DNA from: Arenibacter amylolyticus
GTDB lineage: Bacteria > Bacteroidota > Bacteroidia > Flavobacteriales > Flavobacteriaceae
Assembly: GCF_002150785.1 (NCBI RefSeq)
Contig: NZ_MTAZ01000014.1
Span: 1-64,000, forward strand
DNA: 64,000 nucleotides
Direction of reading: 5' to 3'
In this document: positions 8,930-50,885 of the stretch, piece by piece
Layout: every line of letters starts with the position of its first letter
Position numbering within the stretch: the first letter of the stretch is position 1
Position numbers and translations under genes: made by a program
The notes under the pieces: model-generated
Databases searched by the model: none
What the model saw: only the letters and a program-made list of their open reading frames with translations
Told to the model about the DNA's origin: nothing

Positions 8930-10288
8930 ATGACCACTTTTCAGGATTTAAATCTATCAAAACAAATATTGTACGGAATTGAGGATTTGGGATTTGATTC
9001 CCCAACCCCCATTCAAGAACAATCATTTTCGGTAATCCGATCCGGAAAAGACATGGTAGGAATAGCCCAGACAGGGACTGGTAAGACCTTGGCCTATATC
9101 CTCCCAATCCTACAAGAATTAAAATTCTCCAAGCAAATAAATCCCCGTGTTTTAATTTTAGTGCCCACAAGAGAGCTGGTAGTTCAAGTGGTAGAGAATA
9201 TAAACTCTTTTGCCACCTATACGAGTAGTAGGGTATGTGGAATTTATGGAGGAGCCAATATAAATACACAGCGACAAGCGGTAGCCCAGGGTTGCGATAT
9301 TTTAGTGGCCACTCCCGGACGGTTGTACGATCTTTGTTTAGACCGGACGGTTAAGTTGCGAGATGTGAAAAAGCTGGTGATAGACGAGGTAGATGTTATG
9401 TTAGACCTTGGCTTCCGATTTCAGATTACCAATATTTTGGAATTGCTTCCCTCAAAAAGGCAAAATATTATGTTCTCGGCTACCATGACAGAGGATGTAG
9501 CCAAGCTTATAGAGGACTTCTTTATCAGTCCGGTTAAGGTATCCATCGCCATTAGCGGTACTCCCTTGGCCAATATTGATCAGACTTCCTATGCCGTTGA
9601 AAATTTTTACACCAAAATAAACTTATTGTGTTATTTATTAAAGGACAAGACGCTATATAACAAGGTTTTGATTTTTATTTCAAGCAAAAGAAGTGCCGAC
9701 CGATTATATGAAGCAATGAATGAGGTGTTTGGTGCTGAAATTGATGTGATACACTCTAATAAGACCCAGAATTATAGGTTGCGTTCCATTGATCGGTTTG
9801 ATGAAGGGCAGAATAGGATTTTAATCTCTACGGACATTATGGCTAGGGGAATTGACCTAGATAGAGTGAGTCACGTCATTAACTTTGACACCCCAAAGTT
9901 TCCTGAAAATTACATTCACCGAATTGGAAGAACCGGAAGGGCCAAGCAAAAAGGGAAATCCATCTTATTGTTTACAGAGATGGAAGAGGATTTTAAATCC
10001 AGTATAGAAGCTTTAATGGATTTTTCAATTCCCGTACTAGAGTTCCCTAAGGAAGTAGAAATTTCCGAAAAATTGGCTCCTGAAGAACGTCCTATAGATA
10101 TGGAACTTGCCAAGGCCAACAGAGCTGCCAACGACCAAGAAGGTGGGGGTGCCTTTCATGAGAAATTGGAAAAGAATCAAAAGGTTAATTTGGGAGGATC
10201 CTACAAACGAACTATAGCTAGAAAATATAAAAAACCTCTGACTAGGGGGGATAAGAACGCGGCCAAAAGAAACAAAAACAGAAGGTAG
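8930..10288 (+). CDS. DEAD-box family ATP-dependent RNA helicase
   Basis: SF2 RNA helicase of 452 residues with all motifs in order: Q motif (PTPIQEQ, 26-32), Walker A AQTGTGKT (46-53), PTREL (78-82), the Walker B box here reading DEVD (151-154) instead of DEAD, SAT near 185, and HRIGRTGR in the second RecA domain. The C-terminal tail is basic and disordered-looking (KKPLTRGDKNAAKRNKN), suited to RNA binding, as in RhlE/CshA-type helicases of RNA decay or ribosome assembly. The DEVD variant is tolerated in some bacterial members. The VF530 gene follows after 44 bases and may be co-transcribed. Confidence 0.92.
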   Translation: MTTFQDLNLSKQILYGIEDLGFDSPTPIQEQSFSVIRSGKDMVGIAQTGTGKTLAYILPILQELKFSKQINPRVLILVPTRELVVQVVENINSFATYTSSRVCGIYGGANINTQRQAVAQGCDILVATPGRLYDLCLDRTVKLRDVKKLVIDEVDVMLDLGFRFQITNILELLPSKRQNIMFSATMTEDVAKLIEDFFISPVKVSIAISGTPLANIDQTSYAVENFYTKINLLCYLLKDKTLYNKVLIFISSKRSADRLYEAMNEVFGAEIDVIHSNKTQNYRLRSIDRFDEGQNRILISTDIMARGIDLDRVSHVINFDTPKFPENYIHRIGRTGRAKQKGKSILLFTEMEEDFKSSIEALMDFSIPVLEFPKEVEISEKLAPEERPIDMELAKANRAANDQEGGGAFHEKLEKNQKVNLGGSYKRTIARKYKKPLTRGDKNAAKRNKNRR

Positions 10289-25297: not shown

Positions 25298-27592
25298 TTA
25301 TTGGGACTCCTTTAGAATTTTAAGAACTAAATCTTTGGTCAGCTGTTTTCCATTGGCCTTGATCTTTAAATCTTCAAAAGAAAATCTAAAATCACATCCC
25401 TCACGGAAATTACTACAGCCGTATGCCGATTTCCCTTTTACAATTTCTCCCGACTTGCATTTGGGGCAAAGGGGGACTTCCTTTTTCGGACTAGGCGCTA
25501 CCTTGGGTTCTAAACACAACTTAAACGCTTCATCAAAACGAAGCAAACCTTCAACTTCCTGCTCGTTATTGTGTTTAAACCCTTTGAGATTTACGGTACA
25601 TCCCTTTGTTAATAGCCTTAGGAATTGATTTTCGGAGATGGTCTTTCCGTGAATAGCAAACGGCAACAAAAAATCACAACCAGATTTATAGGCGCTGCAG
25701 CCGTAGGCCGACTTCCCCTTTAGAAGTTTGCCCTCCTTACATTTGGGGCAGCTAGTTCCTTGTACCTCTTTTTTCTTTTTTACCGATTTTTTTTGGTCGG
25801 ATTTTGGAACAGCAGTGGTATGGGAGATATTGGCGCGCTTGGTTTCACTCCGCACTTCGTAGACCAATTGATCTACCATGCGTTTCATATTCTTAATAAA
25901 AACAGCAGCACTAAACTCACCTTTCTCTATATCTTTTAATTGCTTCTCCCATAGACCTGTTAGTTCGGCCGATTTAAGTAGTTCGTTCTGTATGGTATCT
26001 ATAAGTTGAATCCCTGTAGTGGTAGGTAATACCTGTTTTTTATTTCGTTTTATATACTTGCGCTTAAAAAGGGTCTCAATAATACTTGCCCTGGTAGAGG
26101 GCCGGCCAATCCCATTTTCCTTCATTAATTCGCGCATTTCTTCATCATCCACTTGTTTCCCCGCGGTTTCCATAGCCCGTAATAAAGTGGCTTCAGTAAA
26201 TTGTTTGGGTGGCTTGGTCTCTTTCTCCATAAAGGAAGGTTCGTGGGGTCCTTTTTCCCCCTTCACAAAACTGGGTAAGACTCCCGCTTCCCTTTTCCCC
26301 TTGCCATCGGGTGTATCAAAAACAATTCTCCATCCCTTTTTTAGGATTTCTTTTCCCGTAGCCTTAAAATTAATGGTGGTCACTTTTCCTATGACCGTGG
26401 TATTGGAAACTTCGCAATCCGTATAAAATGCAGCAATAAATCGCCTTACAATAATATCATATACCTGTTTTTGGGCAGGATTCATGTTAATTTCCACCCC
26501 AGTCGGAATAATGGCATGGTGGTCTGTAACCTTTTTATCATTAAATACCTTGGGAGATTTTTTTATCTTCTTACCTAATAGAGGAGTACATAATTCTTCA
26601 TACATGCTTAGATTGCGTAGAATCCCCTCTATTTTGGGATACATATCATTGGGAAGAAAGGTGGTATCTACCCTTGGATAGGTTACTGCTTTTTGCTCGT
26701 ATAGTTTTTGAACGATTTTTAGGGTTTCATCGGCCGAAAAACCAAATTTAGTATTACAATACACCTGTAATCCAGTAAGGTCGAATAATTTTGGAGCATA
26801 TTCCTTTCCCTTTTTTTTCTTGATGGACACAATCTCAAAATCGTGCTCCTTTACCTTGGCCGCTACGGCTTCCCCTTCCTCTTTCTTTAGAAACCGGCCT
26901 TCCTCATAACTAAATGTAGTTTCCCGGTATAAGGTTTGTAGTTCCCAATAGGGTTGGGGTTTAAAATCTTCAATCTCCTTATACCTGTTTACTACCATGG
27001 CTAGGGTAGGGGTCTGTACCCTGCCCACCGATAGCATTTGTTTGTATCCCCCATGTTTCACAGTATAGAGTCGGGTTGCATTCATCCCCAACAACCAATC
27101 CCCAATGGCTCGGGAGAATCCGGCATAGTAAAGCTGGTCATAATCTTCCGAGGGTTTTAGTTGGGAGAATCCTTCTTTTATTGCTTCGGTAGTTAGGGAA
27201 GAGATCCACAGTCGTTTTACCTCCCCCGTATAATTGGCCTGATTGATAACCCATCGTTGGATGAGCTCTCCCTCTTGCCCAGCATCCCCGCAGTTGATTA
27301 CCAACTCTGCCTTTTTAAAAAGCTCCTTTACAATATTAAATTGTTTTTGAATTCCTGGGTTATCTGCTACCTTGGTCTTAAACTTGTCTGGGAGCATCGG
27401 TAAATTATTAAGATCCCAACTTTTCCAATGTGGCTTATAATCCTTGGGTTCCAATAAAGTACATAGATGTCCAAAGGTATAGGTTACCGCATAGCCGTTG
27501 CCTTCAAAATACCCATCATGTTTGGTGTTGGCACCTAAAACTTGGGCAATCTCTCTAGCTACACTAGGTTTTTCAGCAATACAGACCTTCAC
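25298..27592 (-). CDS. topB: DNA topoisomerase III (type IA)
   Basis: Type IA topoisomerase of about 764 residues. I prefer the GTG at 27592, because it gives the standard N-terminus VKVCIAEKPSVAREIA (TOPRIM strand); an upstream TTG at 27628 would add 12 residues outside the family. The TOPRIM acidic motif, the GRVQTPTLAMVV segment and the catalytic tyrosine in TYPRVDTTFLP are present. Two C-terminal cysteine modules (CPKCK...GCSAYKSGC and CPKCK...GCSNFREGC) resemble topoisomerase zinc ribbons and aid single-strand binding. It relaxes and decatenates DNA. The gene is monocistronic and not linked to a conjugative element here. Confidence 0.93.
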   Translation of the reverse strand: MKVCIAEKPSVAREIAQVLGANTKHDGYFEGNGYAVTYTFGHLCTLLEPKDYKPHWKSWDLNNLPMLPDKFKTKVADNPGIQKQFNIVKELFKKAELVINCGDAGQEGELIQRWVINQANYTGEVKRLWISSLTTEAIKEGFSQLKPSEDYDQLYYAGFSRAIGDWLLGMNATRLYTVKHGGYKQMLSVGRVQTPTLAMVVNRYKEIEDFKPQPYWELQTLYRETTFSYEEGRFLKKEEGEAVAAKVKEHDFEIVSIKKKKGKEYAPKLFDLTGLQVYCNTKFGFSADETLKIVQKLYEQKAVTYPRVDTTFLPNDMYPKIEGILRNLSMYEELCTPLLGKKIKKSPKVFNDKKVTDHHAIIPTGVEINMNPAQKQVYDIIVRRFIAAFYTDCEVSNTTVIGKVTTINFKATGKEILKKGWRIVFDTPDGKGKREAGVLPSFVKGEKGPHEPSFMEKETKPPKQFTEATLLRAMETAGKQVDDEEMRELMKENGIGRPSTRASIIETLFKRKYIKRNKKQVLPTTTGIQLIDTIQNELLKSAELTGLWEKQLKDIEKGEFSAAVFIKNMKRMVDQLVYEVRSETKRANISHTTAVPKSDQKKSVKKKKEVQGTSCPKCKEGKLLKGKSAYGCSAYKSGCDFLLPFAIHGKTISENQFLRLLTKGCTVNLKGFKHNNEQEVEGLLRFDEAFKLCLEPKVAPSPKKEVPLCPKCKSGEIVKGKSAYGCSNFREGCDFRFSFEDLKIKANGKQLTKDLVLKILKESQ

Positions 27593-27805
27593 GTTTGTTT
27601 CTATTTTTAGTGGGTGCAAAATACTCAATTTTCACCGAATGGCTAATGCTTTCCTAAGTATCAAGTTTTCAGTAAACTTCCCCGTATTTTACTTTAGTTT
27701 CCATGTACAAACATCTTTAATATAGGACGGTTAAATTATTATAATCTTTAATAATCAGTAAATAGTGAAAAATTTAACACAGGAAATAAGCTGGTTTTTT
27801 TTCGT

Positions 27806-27826
27806 TTATCGTAATATTGCAATAAA
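27806..27826. promoter_or_regulatory. Candidate ArsR operator upstream of arsR
   Basis: An imperfect inverted repeat, ATCGTAAT next to ATTGCAAT (6 of 8 matching as arms), lies 15-35 bases upstream of the arsR ATG, where an autoregulatory ArsR site is expected. Assignment is by position and symmetry only. Confidence 0.4.
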
Positions 27827-27839
27827 GAGATACAAAGGA

Positions 27840-28169
27840 ATGGGACTTACCAAATCAGAGAAATTTACCGACCATCAGAATGCCATCGCATTGGTAGCCA
27901 AGGCTTTTGGACATCCTGCAAGAATTGCAATTCTACAGCATATGTTTAAAATGGAATCTTGTATTTGTGGTGATTTGGTAGAGGAAATTGGCTTAGCCCA
28001 GCCTACCATTTCCCAGCATCTTAAGGAATTGAGAAATCTGGGACTTATAAAGGGAACCATAGAAGGAACCCGTATATGTTATTGCATAGATCAAGATAAA
28101 TGGGAGGAGATAAAAGTAATGTTCCAAGACTTTCTAAAACAAAATCCAGTTAACGATACCTGTTGTTAG
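27840..28169 (+). CDS. arsR: ArsR/SmtB family metalloregulator
   Basis: A winged-helix repressor of 109 residues from ATG 27840; an in-frame GTG at 27765 would add 25 residues that do not fit the family. The helix-turn-helix reads ISQHLKELRNLGLI, preceded by the metal-sensing ESCICGDLVEE (a C-x-C pair in helix alpha3, as in arsenic sensors) and a C-terminal CC. It should repress this operon and be released by arsenite or antimonite. The next two genes, DUF6428 and an arsenate-reductase-like phosphatase, form the usual flavobacterial ars group. Confidence 0.88.
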   Translation: MGLTKSEKFTDHQNAIALVAKAFGHPARIAILQHMFKMESCICGDLVEEIGLAQPTISQHLKELRNLGLIKGTIEGTRICYCIDQDKWEEIKVMFQDFLKQNPVNDTCC

Positions 28170-28217
28170 TAATGGTTGACTTATTTAATTCAAATTAAAA
28201 AACTAAAAAATATTATT

Positions 28218-28691
28218 ATGACACTGAGAGAAATAAAATCGCATTTACAGTCTTTGGATACTATTGCTTTCCAACTGCCCAACGGCCAATTTGTACCCAG
28301 CCATTTTCACGTAACAGAGGTTGGAAAAGTGCACAAACACTTTATAGATTGCGGGGGTACCGTGAGGGAAGAAGAGGTTATTAATTTTCAGCTCTGGGAA
28401 GCAAATGATTACGATCATCGAATTCATCCAGAAAAATTGAGTCAGATCATCGCGCTATCGGAAAAAACCTTGAATTTAAAAAACCATGAGATTGAGGTGG
28501 AATATCAAGGAGATACCATAGGGAAGTATGGGTTAGAATTTAACGGCAGCCACTTTATACTTACCAATAGGCAAACAGATTGTTTGGCAAAGGACAATTG
28601 TGGAGTCCCAGAGACCAAACAGAAGATTAAGTTAGAGGAATTGGGTGCCAATCAGCAGAATGCCTGTGCTCCTGGATCGGGTTGTTGCTAA
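28218..28691 (+). CDS. DUF6428 family protein of ars operon
   Basis: A 157-residue cytoplasmic protein of the DUF6428 family, found next to arsR in Bacteroidota. Visible features are the N-terminal block FQLPNGQFVPSHFHVTEVG, IDCGGTVREEEVINFQLW, and a cysteine-rich end (NACAPGSGCC) that could bind arsenite. Function is not established; a metalloid-binding or chaperone role is inferred from the cysteines and neighbours. It lies 48 bases after arsR, and its end overlaps the upstream edge of the phosphatase gene region by proximity (11 bases). Confidence 0.8.
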   Translation: MTLREIKSHLQSLDTIAFQLPNGQFVPSHFHVTEVGKVHKHFIDCGGTVREEEVINFQLWEANDYDHRIHPEKLSQIIALSEKTLNLKNHEIEVEYQGDTIGKYGLEFNGSHFILTNRQTDCLAKDNCGVPETKQKIKLEELGANQQNACAPGSGCC

Positions 28692-28702
28692 TAAAATTCT
28701 AT

Positions 28703-29314
28703 ATGGTATTTAATAAAATTAAAGCATTTTTGGAATGCGTGGACCTAAAGTCCATCCCAGAAGATAGAAAAATGAGACTACAATCTTTAATAGATCATTT
28801 AAAGTCTCAAATGCCCCATGCGGAAATCATTAATCTAAACTTTATCTGCACCCACAATTCAAGAAGGAGTCACTTATCACAGGTTTGGGCACAAGTGATG
28901 GCCTACCACTTCCAATACAATAAAATCCAATGTTACTCTGGGGGGACAGAGGCCACTGCCATTTTTCCCATGGTAATTAACACCTTGGAGAACACCGGCT
29001 TTGTCATCAATAAATTGTCGGAAGGTACTAATCCCATATATGCTATTAAATATGCGCCTAACCAGCTGCCAATAATCGGGTTCTCCAAAGCTTTCGATCA
29101 TAGTTTTAATCCTATTAGCCAATTTACAGCAGTCATGACCTGTTCTGAAGCCAACGAAGCCTGTCCAGTAATTACAGGTACAGAGAATCGGATTTCATTG
29201 ACCTATGAAGATCCAAAATTGTTTGACGACACTTCACTGCAAGAGGAAAAATATTTGGAACGAAGTACCCAAATTGCCACAGAACTATACTATGTTTTTT
29301 CAAATTTGAGGTAA
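28703..29314 (+). CDS. Low-molecular-weight phosphatase-like arsenate reductase
   Basis: A 203-residue protein of the LMW protein-tyrosine-phosphatase fold. The active-site P-loop CTHNSRRS has the CX5R(S) signature, and a second cysteine pair in MTCSEANEACP corresponds to the redox relay cysteines of thioredoxin-linked ArsC. It is therefore probably an arsenate reductase rather than a tyrosine phosphatase. It is the last gene of the arsR group; no arsenite exporter (ArsB or ACR3) follows, which is unusual. Start chosen at ATG 28703 rather than an upstream in-frame TTG-type start that overlaps DUF6428. Confidence 0.83.
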   Translation: MVFNKIKAFLECVDLKSIPEDRKMRLQSLIDHLKSQMPHAEIINLNFICTHNSRRSHLSQVWAQVMAYHFQYNKIQCYSGGTEATAIFPMVINTLENTGFVINKLSEGTNPIYAIKYAPNQLPIIGFSKAFDHSFNPISQFTAVMTCSEANEACPVITGTENRISLTYEDPKLFDDTSLQEEKYLERSTQIATELYYVFSNLR

Positions 29315-30240: not shown

Positions 30241-30354
30241 TTAACGATTAAAATTTCTGTATTGTGCCCATTGTACTCTTTTACAGTCCCTAAAGGAGGA
30301 GAAGTAGTTAAAGGTTTTAGACTCGGTTGCTGTTTTTGAACTGGATGCTCTCAT
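30241..30354 (-). CDS. Tandem small basic peptide, copy A (37 aa)
   Basis: A 37-codon ORF, ATG 30354-30352 to TAA 30243-30241. The peptide is hydrophilic and strongly basic (about 8 Lys/Arg against 2 acidic residues), begins MRASSSKTATESKTF, has one cysteine (Cys24) and an aromatic-basic end with W29, Y32 and F35. No signal peptide or membrane segment. Protein sequence is identical to copies B and C. It is the most distal copy of the minus-strand operon and is followed by the shared terminator. Variable codons: F18 ttc, S19 tcc, D23 gac, V27 gta. No family recognised. Confidence 0.65.
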   Translation of the reverse strand: MRASSSKTATESKTFNYFSSFRDCKRVQWAQYRNFNR

Positions 30355-30389
30355 GATTTTTGATGTTTTTAGGTGGATAGTGATTTTAC

Positions 30390-30503
30390 TTAACGATTAA
30401 AATTTCTGTATTGTGCCCATTGCACTCTTTTACAGTCCCTAAAGGAGGAAAAGTAGTTAAAGGTTTTAGACTCGGTTGCTGTTTTTGAACTGGATGCTCT
30501 CAT
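30390..30503 (-). CDS. Tandem small basic peptide, copy B (37 aa)
   Basis: Middle copy of the identical 37-residue peptide, ATG 30503-30501 to TAA 30392-30390. It differs from copy A at two codons only, F18 (ttt) and V27 (gtg), both synonymous. The 36-base spacer upstream of its ATG contains a conserved 24-base block shared with the A-B spacer, perhaps a translation or processing signal. Function unknown. Confidence 0.65.
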   Translation of the reverse strand: MRASSSKTATESKTFNYFSSFRDCKRVQWAQYRNFNR

Positions 30504-30539
30504 GATTATTATATTTTTTTAGGTGGATAGTGATTTTAC

Positions 30540-30653
30540 TTAACGATTAAAATTTCTGTATTGTGCCCATTGCACTCTTTTACAATCCCTAAAGGAAGAA
30601 AAGTAGTTAAAGGTTTTAGACTCGGTTGCTGTTTTTGAACTGGATGCTCTCAT
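30540..30653 (-). CDS. Tandem small basic peptide, copy C (37 aa)
   Basis: First copy in transcription order, ATG 30653-30651 to TAA 30542-30540. Encodes the same 37 residues as A and B; relative to B it differs at S19 (tct) and D23 (gat), again synonymous. Its ATG is only 5 bases after the TAG of the 42-residue ORF upstream, so the two are likely translationally coupled, unlike A and B which have 35-36-base leaders. Function unknown. Confidence 0.65.
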   Translation of the reverse strand: MRASSSKTATESKTFNYFSSFRDCKRVQWAQYRNFNR

Positions 30654-30658
30654 GATTA

Positions 30659-30787
30659 CTATATGTTTATGTGAATATTTATTCTTTTGGTTCCATTTCT
30701 TTGGTCGTACCACCTGTCAGTAACCCAACCAAGTTTGCTTTTAAAATATATTTTAGGTCTTCTTAAATGTGGGTATACCGTTTCCAT
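30659..30787 (-). CDS. Putative 42-residue basic small protein leading the array
   Basis: A 42-codon ORF, ATG 30787-30785 to TAG 30661-30659, just upstream of the three identical small ORFs on the same strand. It is rich in basic and aromatic residues (9 Lys/Arg, 3 acidic; VYPHLRRPKIYF, LGWVTDRWYDQRNG). No signal peptide, membrane helix or known motif. Its similar size and charge to the repeated peptide, and the 5-base gap, suggest one functional unit. I do not recognise a homologue, and an alternative reading frame across the same bases also lacks stops for about 27 codons, so the coding call is tentative. Confidence 0.45.
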   Translation of the reverse strand: METVYPHLRRPKIYFKSKLGWVTDRWYDQRNGTKRINIHINI

Positions 30788-31111
30788 GTTGTATGTTTTT
30801 TGATGGTTTACACGATTAAGACGAAGGATGAATATTTTTGTTACAGTACTATGTATAAAAAGGTACCTTTTTATGATTTAATTAACACCTTTGGTTGTTG
30901 AATCCTATTAAATAGGGGGTCGGTGTTTTTGTGTGTTATGTAGATTTGCGGATCCTTGGTGTTTTCAAGCTATCCCTTCAGTAGGGGATGACGCTTCATT
31001 GTACTATGATTAAATTTTGGAGGTTACTTTAAATAGGGTCCATTTTCTTCTATTGAAAATTATATTGTATCTTATAGGGTATAACAGCCACTTTCCTAAA
31101 CTTTATATAAA
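30788..31111. other. Intergenic control region between small-ORF array and pcm
   Basis: About 320 bases between divergent units. It holds a perfect 20-base palindrome centred on GGTACC at 30855-30874 and a two-part hairpin at 30884-30927 (outer arms 30884-30889 with 30922-30927, inner arms 30904-30908 with 30912-30916) followed by T residues on the plus strand. No TAnnTTTG box is found on either strand. These structures are candidates for control of the array. Confidence 0.5.
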
Positions 31112-50414: not shown

Positions 50415-50885
50415 TTGATATGTTTAATGGAATTTCAAAAAGAAGCGGGTTGGCCATGGAAATAGGGGTAACATTGGTTCCAAATCCATTTGGCTTATCC
50501 CTTTAGCACCTTGCTCGTTAATGCAGGTTGCTATCCCTTTTTGGAGATTCTTGATAATTAAGTGGGCAAAAATAACCCTTTACCTTACAACAGGTCTCTA
50601 AAAATGGGATTTTTATTTTATGGGTTCATAGGTTTCATCTTAGCTACGGTGGCTAAAGGTTAAAAACAGTGGGAGTCTTAGGGAAAGAAGGCTTTAGGTG
50701 GGGTAGCTACTAAGATTTACAGAGGATATTTTGTAGCAAAAAAAAGGATAAGGGCTGAGATTCCTGCTCTAAAAAATAGGGCAAATTTGAAAAAAAAATG
50801 AAATAAATCAAATAAATTACTGAATTCTAAATTATTGTCACCACATTTGCATACTTAAAGTATTTACAATTTAATTATTATTACA
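50415..50885. other. Divergent intergenic region, nhaC and cspA
   Basis: About 470 bases. On the minus strand a TATTTTTG box at 50574-50567 could serve nhaC. Toward cspA there is CACATTTG at 50842-50849, one base off the -7 consensus, leaving a leader of roughly 30 bases. No other ORF or repeat is recognised. Confidence 0.4.

Follow-up and report, generated by a model that had tools for sequence, protein, structure and literature searches.

The genome of Arenibacter amylolyticus carries, within the first 64,000 nucleotides of contig NZ_MTAZ01000014.1 (the stretch analysed here, hereafter the window), a minus-strand operon in which a 42-codon open reading frame (ORF) is followed by three tandem 37-codon ORFs (Table 1). 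Comparison with other genomes indicates that this operon belongs to an apparently undescribed, often multi-copy kind of small-peptide operon that recurs across the Flavobacteriaceae behind an unusually conserved stress-type promoter. The initial annotation of the locus covered 30241-30787 and therefore excluded the promoter at 30866-30820; this promoter, of the extracytoplasmic function (ECF) sigma type, the substitute peptides of other genera and a candidate sigma factor were all outside its view.

Table 1. Features of the small-peptide locus in the window
Feature	Position	Strand	Basis
Imperfect palindrome GTAC-N13-GTAC, directly upstream of -35	30846-30866	minus	conserved across 126 sites
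ECF-sigma-type promoter core GTAC-TGTAAC (-35)-N16-CGTC (-10)	30820-30849	minus	element in 44/63 37-mer arrays
42-residue leader peptide ORF (RPKIYF..GW..DRWYDQ), first gene of the operon	30659-30787	minus	counterpart in G002; leader hidden Markov model
37-residue peptide, copy 1	30540-30653	minus	encodes MRASSSKTATESKTFNYFSSFRDCKRVQWAQYRNFNR
37-residue peptide, copy 2	30390-30503	minus	encodes MRASSSKTATESKTFNYFSSFRDCKRVQWAQYRNFNR
37-residue peptide, copy 3	30241-30354	minus	encodes MRASSSKTATESKTFNYFSSFRDCKRVQWAQYRNFNR
Terminator-like hairpin between the array and a convergent 3-keto-disaccharide-hydrolase-type gene	30199-30164	minus	folding

Re-reading of the window sequence bore out what the initial annotation had described. 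The three ORFs encode exactly the same 37 residues, MRASSSKTATESKTFNYFSSFRDCKRVQWAQYRNFNR; the differences among the copies are confined to codons 18, 19, 23 and 27 and are all synonymous; the spacers, of 36 and 35 nt, differ by substitutions and one indel; and the 42-codon ORF stops 5 nt upstream of copy 1. Tandem Repeats Finder places the array at 30241-30668 with a period of 150 and a score of 793. An alternative GTG start of copy 1 would give 57 residues, but the homologues start at ATG.

A second genome of the genus (G002) holds the leader ORF and a single 37-mer with the same neighbours as in the window, genes of the PCMT and 3-keto-disaccharide-hydrolase types. Between the two loci, the 37-mer has a non-synonymous divergence (dN) of 0.058 and a synonymous divergence (dS) of 0.59-0.82 (dN/dS about 0.07-0.10), and the leader has a dN of 0.174 and a dS of 1.25 (dN/dS 0.14). 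In nine same-genus genomes with an operon of two 28-mers and a 43-mer, the ratios of mean dN to mean dS are 0.047 and 0.032 for the 28-mers and 0.067 for the 43-mer (35, 33 and 36 usable of 36 genome pairs, respectively). Because the copy differences are all synonymous, dN/dS is low and homologues are widespread, the ORFs are real genes, and a chance or non-coding repeat is ruled out on the same grounds. The multi-copy small-protein operon under purifying selection that had been suggested from the window is thus supported. General concerted evolution of the array copies is unsupported: for 37 of 88 copies the nearest copy lies in the same array, and array mates that are 85% or more identical show 133 synonymous versus 64 non-synonymous codon differences. 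G002 also contains a 37-mer-like frame without a good start (L010:1500-1595), perhaps a decayed copy.

Homologues, which the initial annotation had proposed to look for, proved numerous. A profile built from three rows matched 88 of 397 family genomes at E<=0.1 and 50 at E<=1e-5, with many of the matches in tandem arrays, and an iterated hidden Markov model (HMM) collected 152 members in 63 loci (60 fetched arrays, the window, G002 and a second locus of the A. amylolyticus genome). One, two, three and four copies were found at 13, 20, 21 and 9 of these loci. The suggestion that copy number sets peptide dosage is consistent with this range but unproven, and G002 has one copy. The second A. amylolyticus array consists of one 68% identical and one remote 37-mer and adjoins an AraC/TPR-type regulator; G006, of the same genus, gave a weak 37-type match (E 0.015). 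The 37-mer tail pattern was also found in records of Maribacter, Ulvibacterium, Croceivirga, Muriicola, Aurantibacter, Pricia and Croceitalea. In samples of the order and the phylum (395 genomes each), the 37-mer profile had no convincing match outside the Flavobacteriaceae: the best reached E 0.001, and several contained internal stops while one (E 0.002) did not. A profile of a second peptide type, the 28-mer, matched 4 of 181 genomes in the order sample, all within the same family.

A promoter element shared by several peptide families

The same upstream block, a palindrome running into TGTAAC, N16 and CGTC, precedes arrays in unrelated surroundings. TGTAAC-N16-CGTC follows the arrangement of an ECF-sigma promoter. 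The CGT -10 box has been attributed to ECF factors in the Flavobacterium psychrophilum promoter data of PMC9723704. The palindrome, which is perfect (GTACTAT-N7-ATAGTAC) in nine same-genus genomes, probably binds a second regulator that acts as a dimer, and in the nine genomes with the 28-28-43 operon the whole promoter block comprises about 50 invariant bases. Among the 37-mer arrays that have the element, 42 have N16 and two N17.

A search of 60 relatives with the pattern AGTACTGTAAC-N10..17-CGTCT gave 19 sites, all with N16 and spread over 17 genomes, against one site for the reversed control. All 19 sites precede short W-tailed basic peptides, mostly several in a row, which are 28-mers ending WN.KRRYR, 43/44-mers or 37-mers. 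A shorter pattern, GTACTGTAAC-N16-CGTC, was found in 161 of 388 family genomes (114 of 237 genera) and its reversed control in 3; in about 140 of the 161 it occurs once. From this site list we fetched a second set of 79 regions, the majority in genomes that had no 37-mer match; here 69 of 80 sites precede peptides recognised by HMM and 67 of 80 do so by the plain W-tail pattern (three of the other 13, L263, L289 and L290, run into the end of a contig). In a larger set of promoter sites, 126 of 137 lead into peptides; this set was partly selected for 37-mers, and 19 of 19 and 69 of 80 are the fairer counts.

Eleven of the 80 sites had no HMM match. At two of them, L257 and L302, the peptides are short, basic and divergent, with four copies in tandem at L257, and five are without the upstream element and look like chance matches. 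The other four (L253 twice, L276 and L301) precede a 187-188-residue protein with repeated acidic and FDTSKYLPxNFNALKG motifs (sites at about 1690 and 2720 in L253, 750 in L276 and 1730 in L301, on the strand read); this protein is probably exported, and the one copy run had no match in Pfam or NCBIfam.

Within the genus of A. amylolyticus, the element is exact in 11 of 18 genomes and has one or two mismatches in three others, and all 14 elements precede peptides. The remaining four, G006 among them, gave nothing in a search for the exact element, and their 28-mer matches reached E 0.06 at best. Among 80 genomes mostly picked as having no exact element, 11 without it still matched the 28-mer at E<=1e-8. 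Twelve 28-mer loci without the exact element were examined. In eight of them the -35/-10 core is retained, intact or mismatched at a single base, and these include G085, G026 and G126, where the palindrome is lost. G217 and G136 are without a good core, and the regular expression applied to these loci picked up no peptide in G102 and G057.

The 28-mers, of the type MRTLNNNQLTGTLNGTKSNQWNTKRRYR, occur in many genera in one to four copies, often with a 43/44-mer after them. At ten promoter sites they stand together with a 37-type ORF, and therefore the peptide families are linked. Among promoter-site peptides, a W-x(2-4)-[RK]-aromatic motif lies near the C terminus in 130 of 132 28-mers, 38 of 41 44-mers and 117 of 133 37-mers; in the 42-mers, of which the leader HMM found 14 at the 137 promoter sites, 10 have it anywhere in the sequence. 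The peptides are polar, with a median net charge of +5 to +6, and look too polar for a membrane role. Their starts are rich in A: 88% of 320 peptide starts, a set of related sequences, have A at -3 and 86-88% have it at -11 to -13, against 47% and 43-60% at first-M positions in 444 ORFs with 200 residues or more (a control lowered by some wrong first-M calls) and about 30% at 26,367 ATGs. In F. johnsoniae, A at -3, -6, -12 and -13 is among the positive determinants of initiation reported in PMC6847099. Beside the 28/44-mer loci, a divergent gene of about 254 codons lies on one side in 35 of 80 and an ExbD/TolR-type gene in 29 of 80 (for example L273 and L295; one gene was checked in Pfam for this call).

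Consistent with the initial annotation, which had recognised no known family, searches of Pfam, NCBIfam, PHROGs, PADLOC and PDB sequences, for which the choice of peptide types varied among the libraries, returned no good match; the best for the 42-mer was phrog_11031 (E 0.05), and the best PDB match had E 0.11. No paper listed in text searches of an open-access collection, which has few of the subscription journals, was recognised from its title and the start of its abstract as treating these peptides. The peptide family appears undescribed, while ECF-controlled small-protein operons are a known kind.

Phage and plasmid records had no match to the 37-mer or 28-mer, and IMG/VR had none to the 37-mer tail pattern; phage- or plasmid-borne copies of these two peptides are therefore unsupported, and the exception to weigh is IMG/VR contig L339 (IMGVR_UViG_3300033144_004829). 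At 10069-10187 this contig has the promoter element, whose upstream palindrome deviates slightly in sequence, and 29 nt later a 19-codon ORF, MLRTSTKSSIWNSRRRYSL, on the strand opposite to the phage genes. It encodes a phage-type DNA polymerase, for which a search found no relatives, a DnaB-like helicase fragment and a phosphoesterase. Among 61 viral contig matches to the promoter pattern, L339 alone has both a peptide-family match and the upstream context, and it alone again qualified among five IMG/VR matches to a second promoter pattern. Phage carriage of the element is thus a single case.

A candidate sigma factor

In the A. amylolyticus genome, one match to the loose core TGTAAC-N15..17-CGTCT lies directly before an ECF sigma gene (G000:C29:39967-40416); downstream of this gene come one for a membrane protein and one with DUF4252. 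The sigma belongs to NCBIfam NF058625, the GFO_1088/PG0214 family (E 4.9e-61). Orthologues are present in 40 of the 60 relatives, and TGTAAC-N16-CGTC stands before the sigma gene in 27 of the 30 loci examined of those 40, the other three being one base off. All 17 element-bearing genomes among the 60 have the sigma, and none of the 20 sigma-less genomes has the element. Since the sigma gene carries the same -35 and -10 before itself as the peptide operons do, this factor is the best candidate for their regulator; the palindrome is an addition of the peptide promoters and is absent from the promoter of the A. amylolyticus sigma gene.

Two reports on Porphyromonas gingivalis bear on this family. 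In the expression data given for strain FLL361, taken to be a PG_0686 mutant, PG_0214 to PG_0216 rose 8.2-10.6 fold under H2O2, and PG_0216 has DUF4252 (PMC10101095). SigCH (PGN_0319), which may be the same gene as the GFO_1088/PG0214-family sigma, is described as regulating cdhR and hmuYR (PMC5607195). The literature searches yielded no paper connecting this sigma family with small peptides, nor one on its role in Flavobacteriaceae.

As to the rest of the window, the bidirectional terminator proposed to close the array is plausible but not strong: the hairpin has A's and U's on its flanks and folds at -15.6 kcal/mol, but its z is only -1.78 (11 of 200 shuffles fold equally well) and a simple terminator scan listed nothing there. 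A SAM-I/IV (S-adenosylmethionine) riboswitch scores above the gathering threshold at 50464-50562 on the minus strand. On the plus strand at 27765-29314, an ArsR-family regulator gene precedes two others, of which the second weakly matches a low-molecular-weight phosphatase; this is perhaps an arsenic-type cluster.

Proposed mechanism and alternatives

We propose, as the probable reading, that the locus is a small-protein operon transcribed by an ECF sigma, whose peptides bind an abundant acidic partner under stress. An ECF sigma, most likely the autoregulated GFO_1088/PG0214-family factor, would transcribe the operon from TGTAAC-N16-CGTC, acting together with a second regulator at the adjacent palindrome. 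The transcript would carry one 42-mer and three 37-mer copies, and a high peptide output per transcript is expected because these ORF families have very strong flavobacterial start contexts. The short, soluble, strongly basic peptides, with their W-x(2-4)-[RK]-aromatic tails, would then bind the partner, which we infer to be most likely RNA or the ribosome, in a setting of envelope or oxidative stress. Stoichiometric binding of this kind would fit because the set appears to be sigma-induced, is often multi-copy, and encodes tiny, basic and, by their start contexts, strongly translated peptides. The data show that the ORFs are coding and under selection, that the promoter is conserved and that the sigma gene has a matching promoter of its own, whereas the acting sigma, the stimulus and the partner are inferred.

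Several observations weigh against this proposal. Nineteen of the 63 37-mer arrays are without the element (17 when two that have just the exact core are credited with it); their upstream regions are different or the element is partial. Six of them (L013:4991-5280, L052, L064, L070, L075 and L079) form a second class with a divergent AraC/TPR regulator alongside and common CRTCATARTTT-like repeats upstream in place of the ECF element. The genus of A. amylolyticus also has divergent ORFs of the 37 type, such as MKAFDNYRRIPTESNKHVFFSQMKYGKRSQWSALRRFTAAY (L113-L120, where the match lies near position 1500), and six of the eight such loci looked at are away from the element. Because these element-less arrays and off-element ORFs exist, the peptides are not tied to one regulator. 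The loose core in the A. amylolyticus genome has 5 matches versus 6 for the reversed control, which is no enrichment, so that a regulon beyond two sites is unsupported. The co-occurrence of sigma and element is confounded by phylogeny, TGTAAC/CGTC is a common ECF signature, and the GFO_1088/PG0214-family factor, the only one examined, is one of several ECF factors of the genome. Finally, the argument for RNA or ribosome binding comes down to charge and size, and the AlphaFold model of the 37-mer is weak, with two low-confidence helices (predicted local distance difference test score 69, predicted template modelling score 0.28).

It is possible, if doubtful, that the peptides are instead feedback modulators of transcription or proteolysis that bind RNA polymerase, sigma or anti-sigma. 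Several tiny stress proteins act as feedback modulators, the ECF-type promoter before the operon mostly occurs once in a genome, and the phage contig with the element and a 19-residue mimic would suit this reading, as phages often target host RNA polymerase. The tandem copies and strong starts, however, suggest stoichiometric amounts rather than a low-dose regulator. Tandem, near-identical ORFs of about 35 codons in an intergenic position also recall Ldr and Ibs of E. coli, which are tandem near-identical ORFs of about 20-35 codons encoding hydrophobic membrane toxins with antisense RNA. Unlike these, the peptides described here are polar and basic and stand behind a conserved promoter of their own, and an array of small toxic peptides of the type I toxin-antitoxin kind is unlikely.

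Multi-copy short ORFs with a conserved C-terminal segment could likewise be precursors of a modified peptide, bacteriocin or pheromone. No peptide-modifying or export gene was recognised, mostly by eye, among the recurrent neighbours of the 63 arrays and the 80 28/44-mer loci, where the recurring ExbD/TolR-type genes stand beside the 28-mers, and no signal sequence was seen by eye; we consider such precursors very unlikely. Most improbable, in our view, is that the locus serves as a regulatory RNA or attenuator, its ORFs being incidental or cis-acting. A short independent transcript is expected here, and in F. psychrophilum an ECF-type (SM6) promoter precedes the putative small RNA (sRNA) Rfp11 (PMC9723704), but five ORFs have dN/dS of 0.03-0.14 and the next gene downstream of the array in the window is convergent, so there is nothing to attenuate.

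Relation to known systems and significance

One of the F. psychrophilum SM6 promoters drives an ECF/anti-sigma pair, and the selected SM6 targets shown in that study comprise type IX secretion system, membrane and other genes and one putative sRNA, with no small peptides among them (PMC9723704). FbpA, FbpB and FbpC of Bacillus are short, basic and stress-induced by one regulator; the peptides reported here share no Pfam or NCBIfam family with them and differ in regulator and copy pattern.

A more speculative view, which we think rather improbable, is that all these operons are a single dedicated alarm operon, conserved more in its promoter than in its product, that the families with a common basic aromatic tail interchange behind it, and that the phage 19-mer MLRTSTKSSIWNSRRRYSL mimics or hijacks the response. 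If true, this would define a novel type of stress effector peptide, which might act on the ribosome or RNA polymerase where phage and host are in conflict. The phage copy, should it be confirmed, indicates that the cell has a target that is worth a phage's while to hijack. Element and operon go together nearly one to one, which puts the stimulus and the regulator within direct reach. The peptides, strongly selected, family-wide and short enough to escape routine gene calling, would add a new output to the GFO_1088/PG0214-family ECF sigma.
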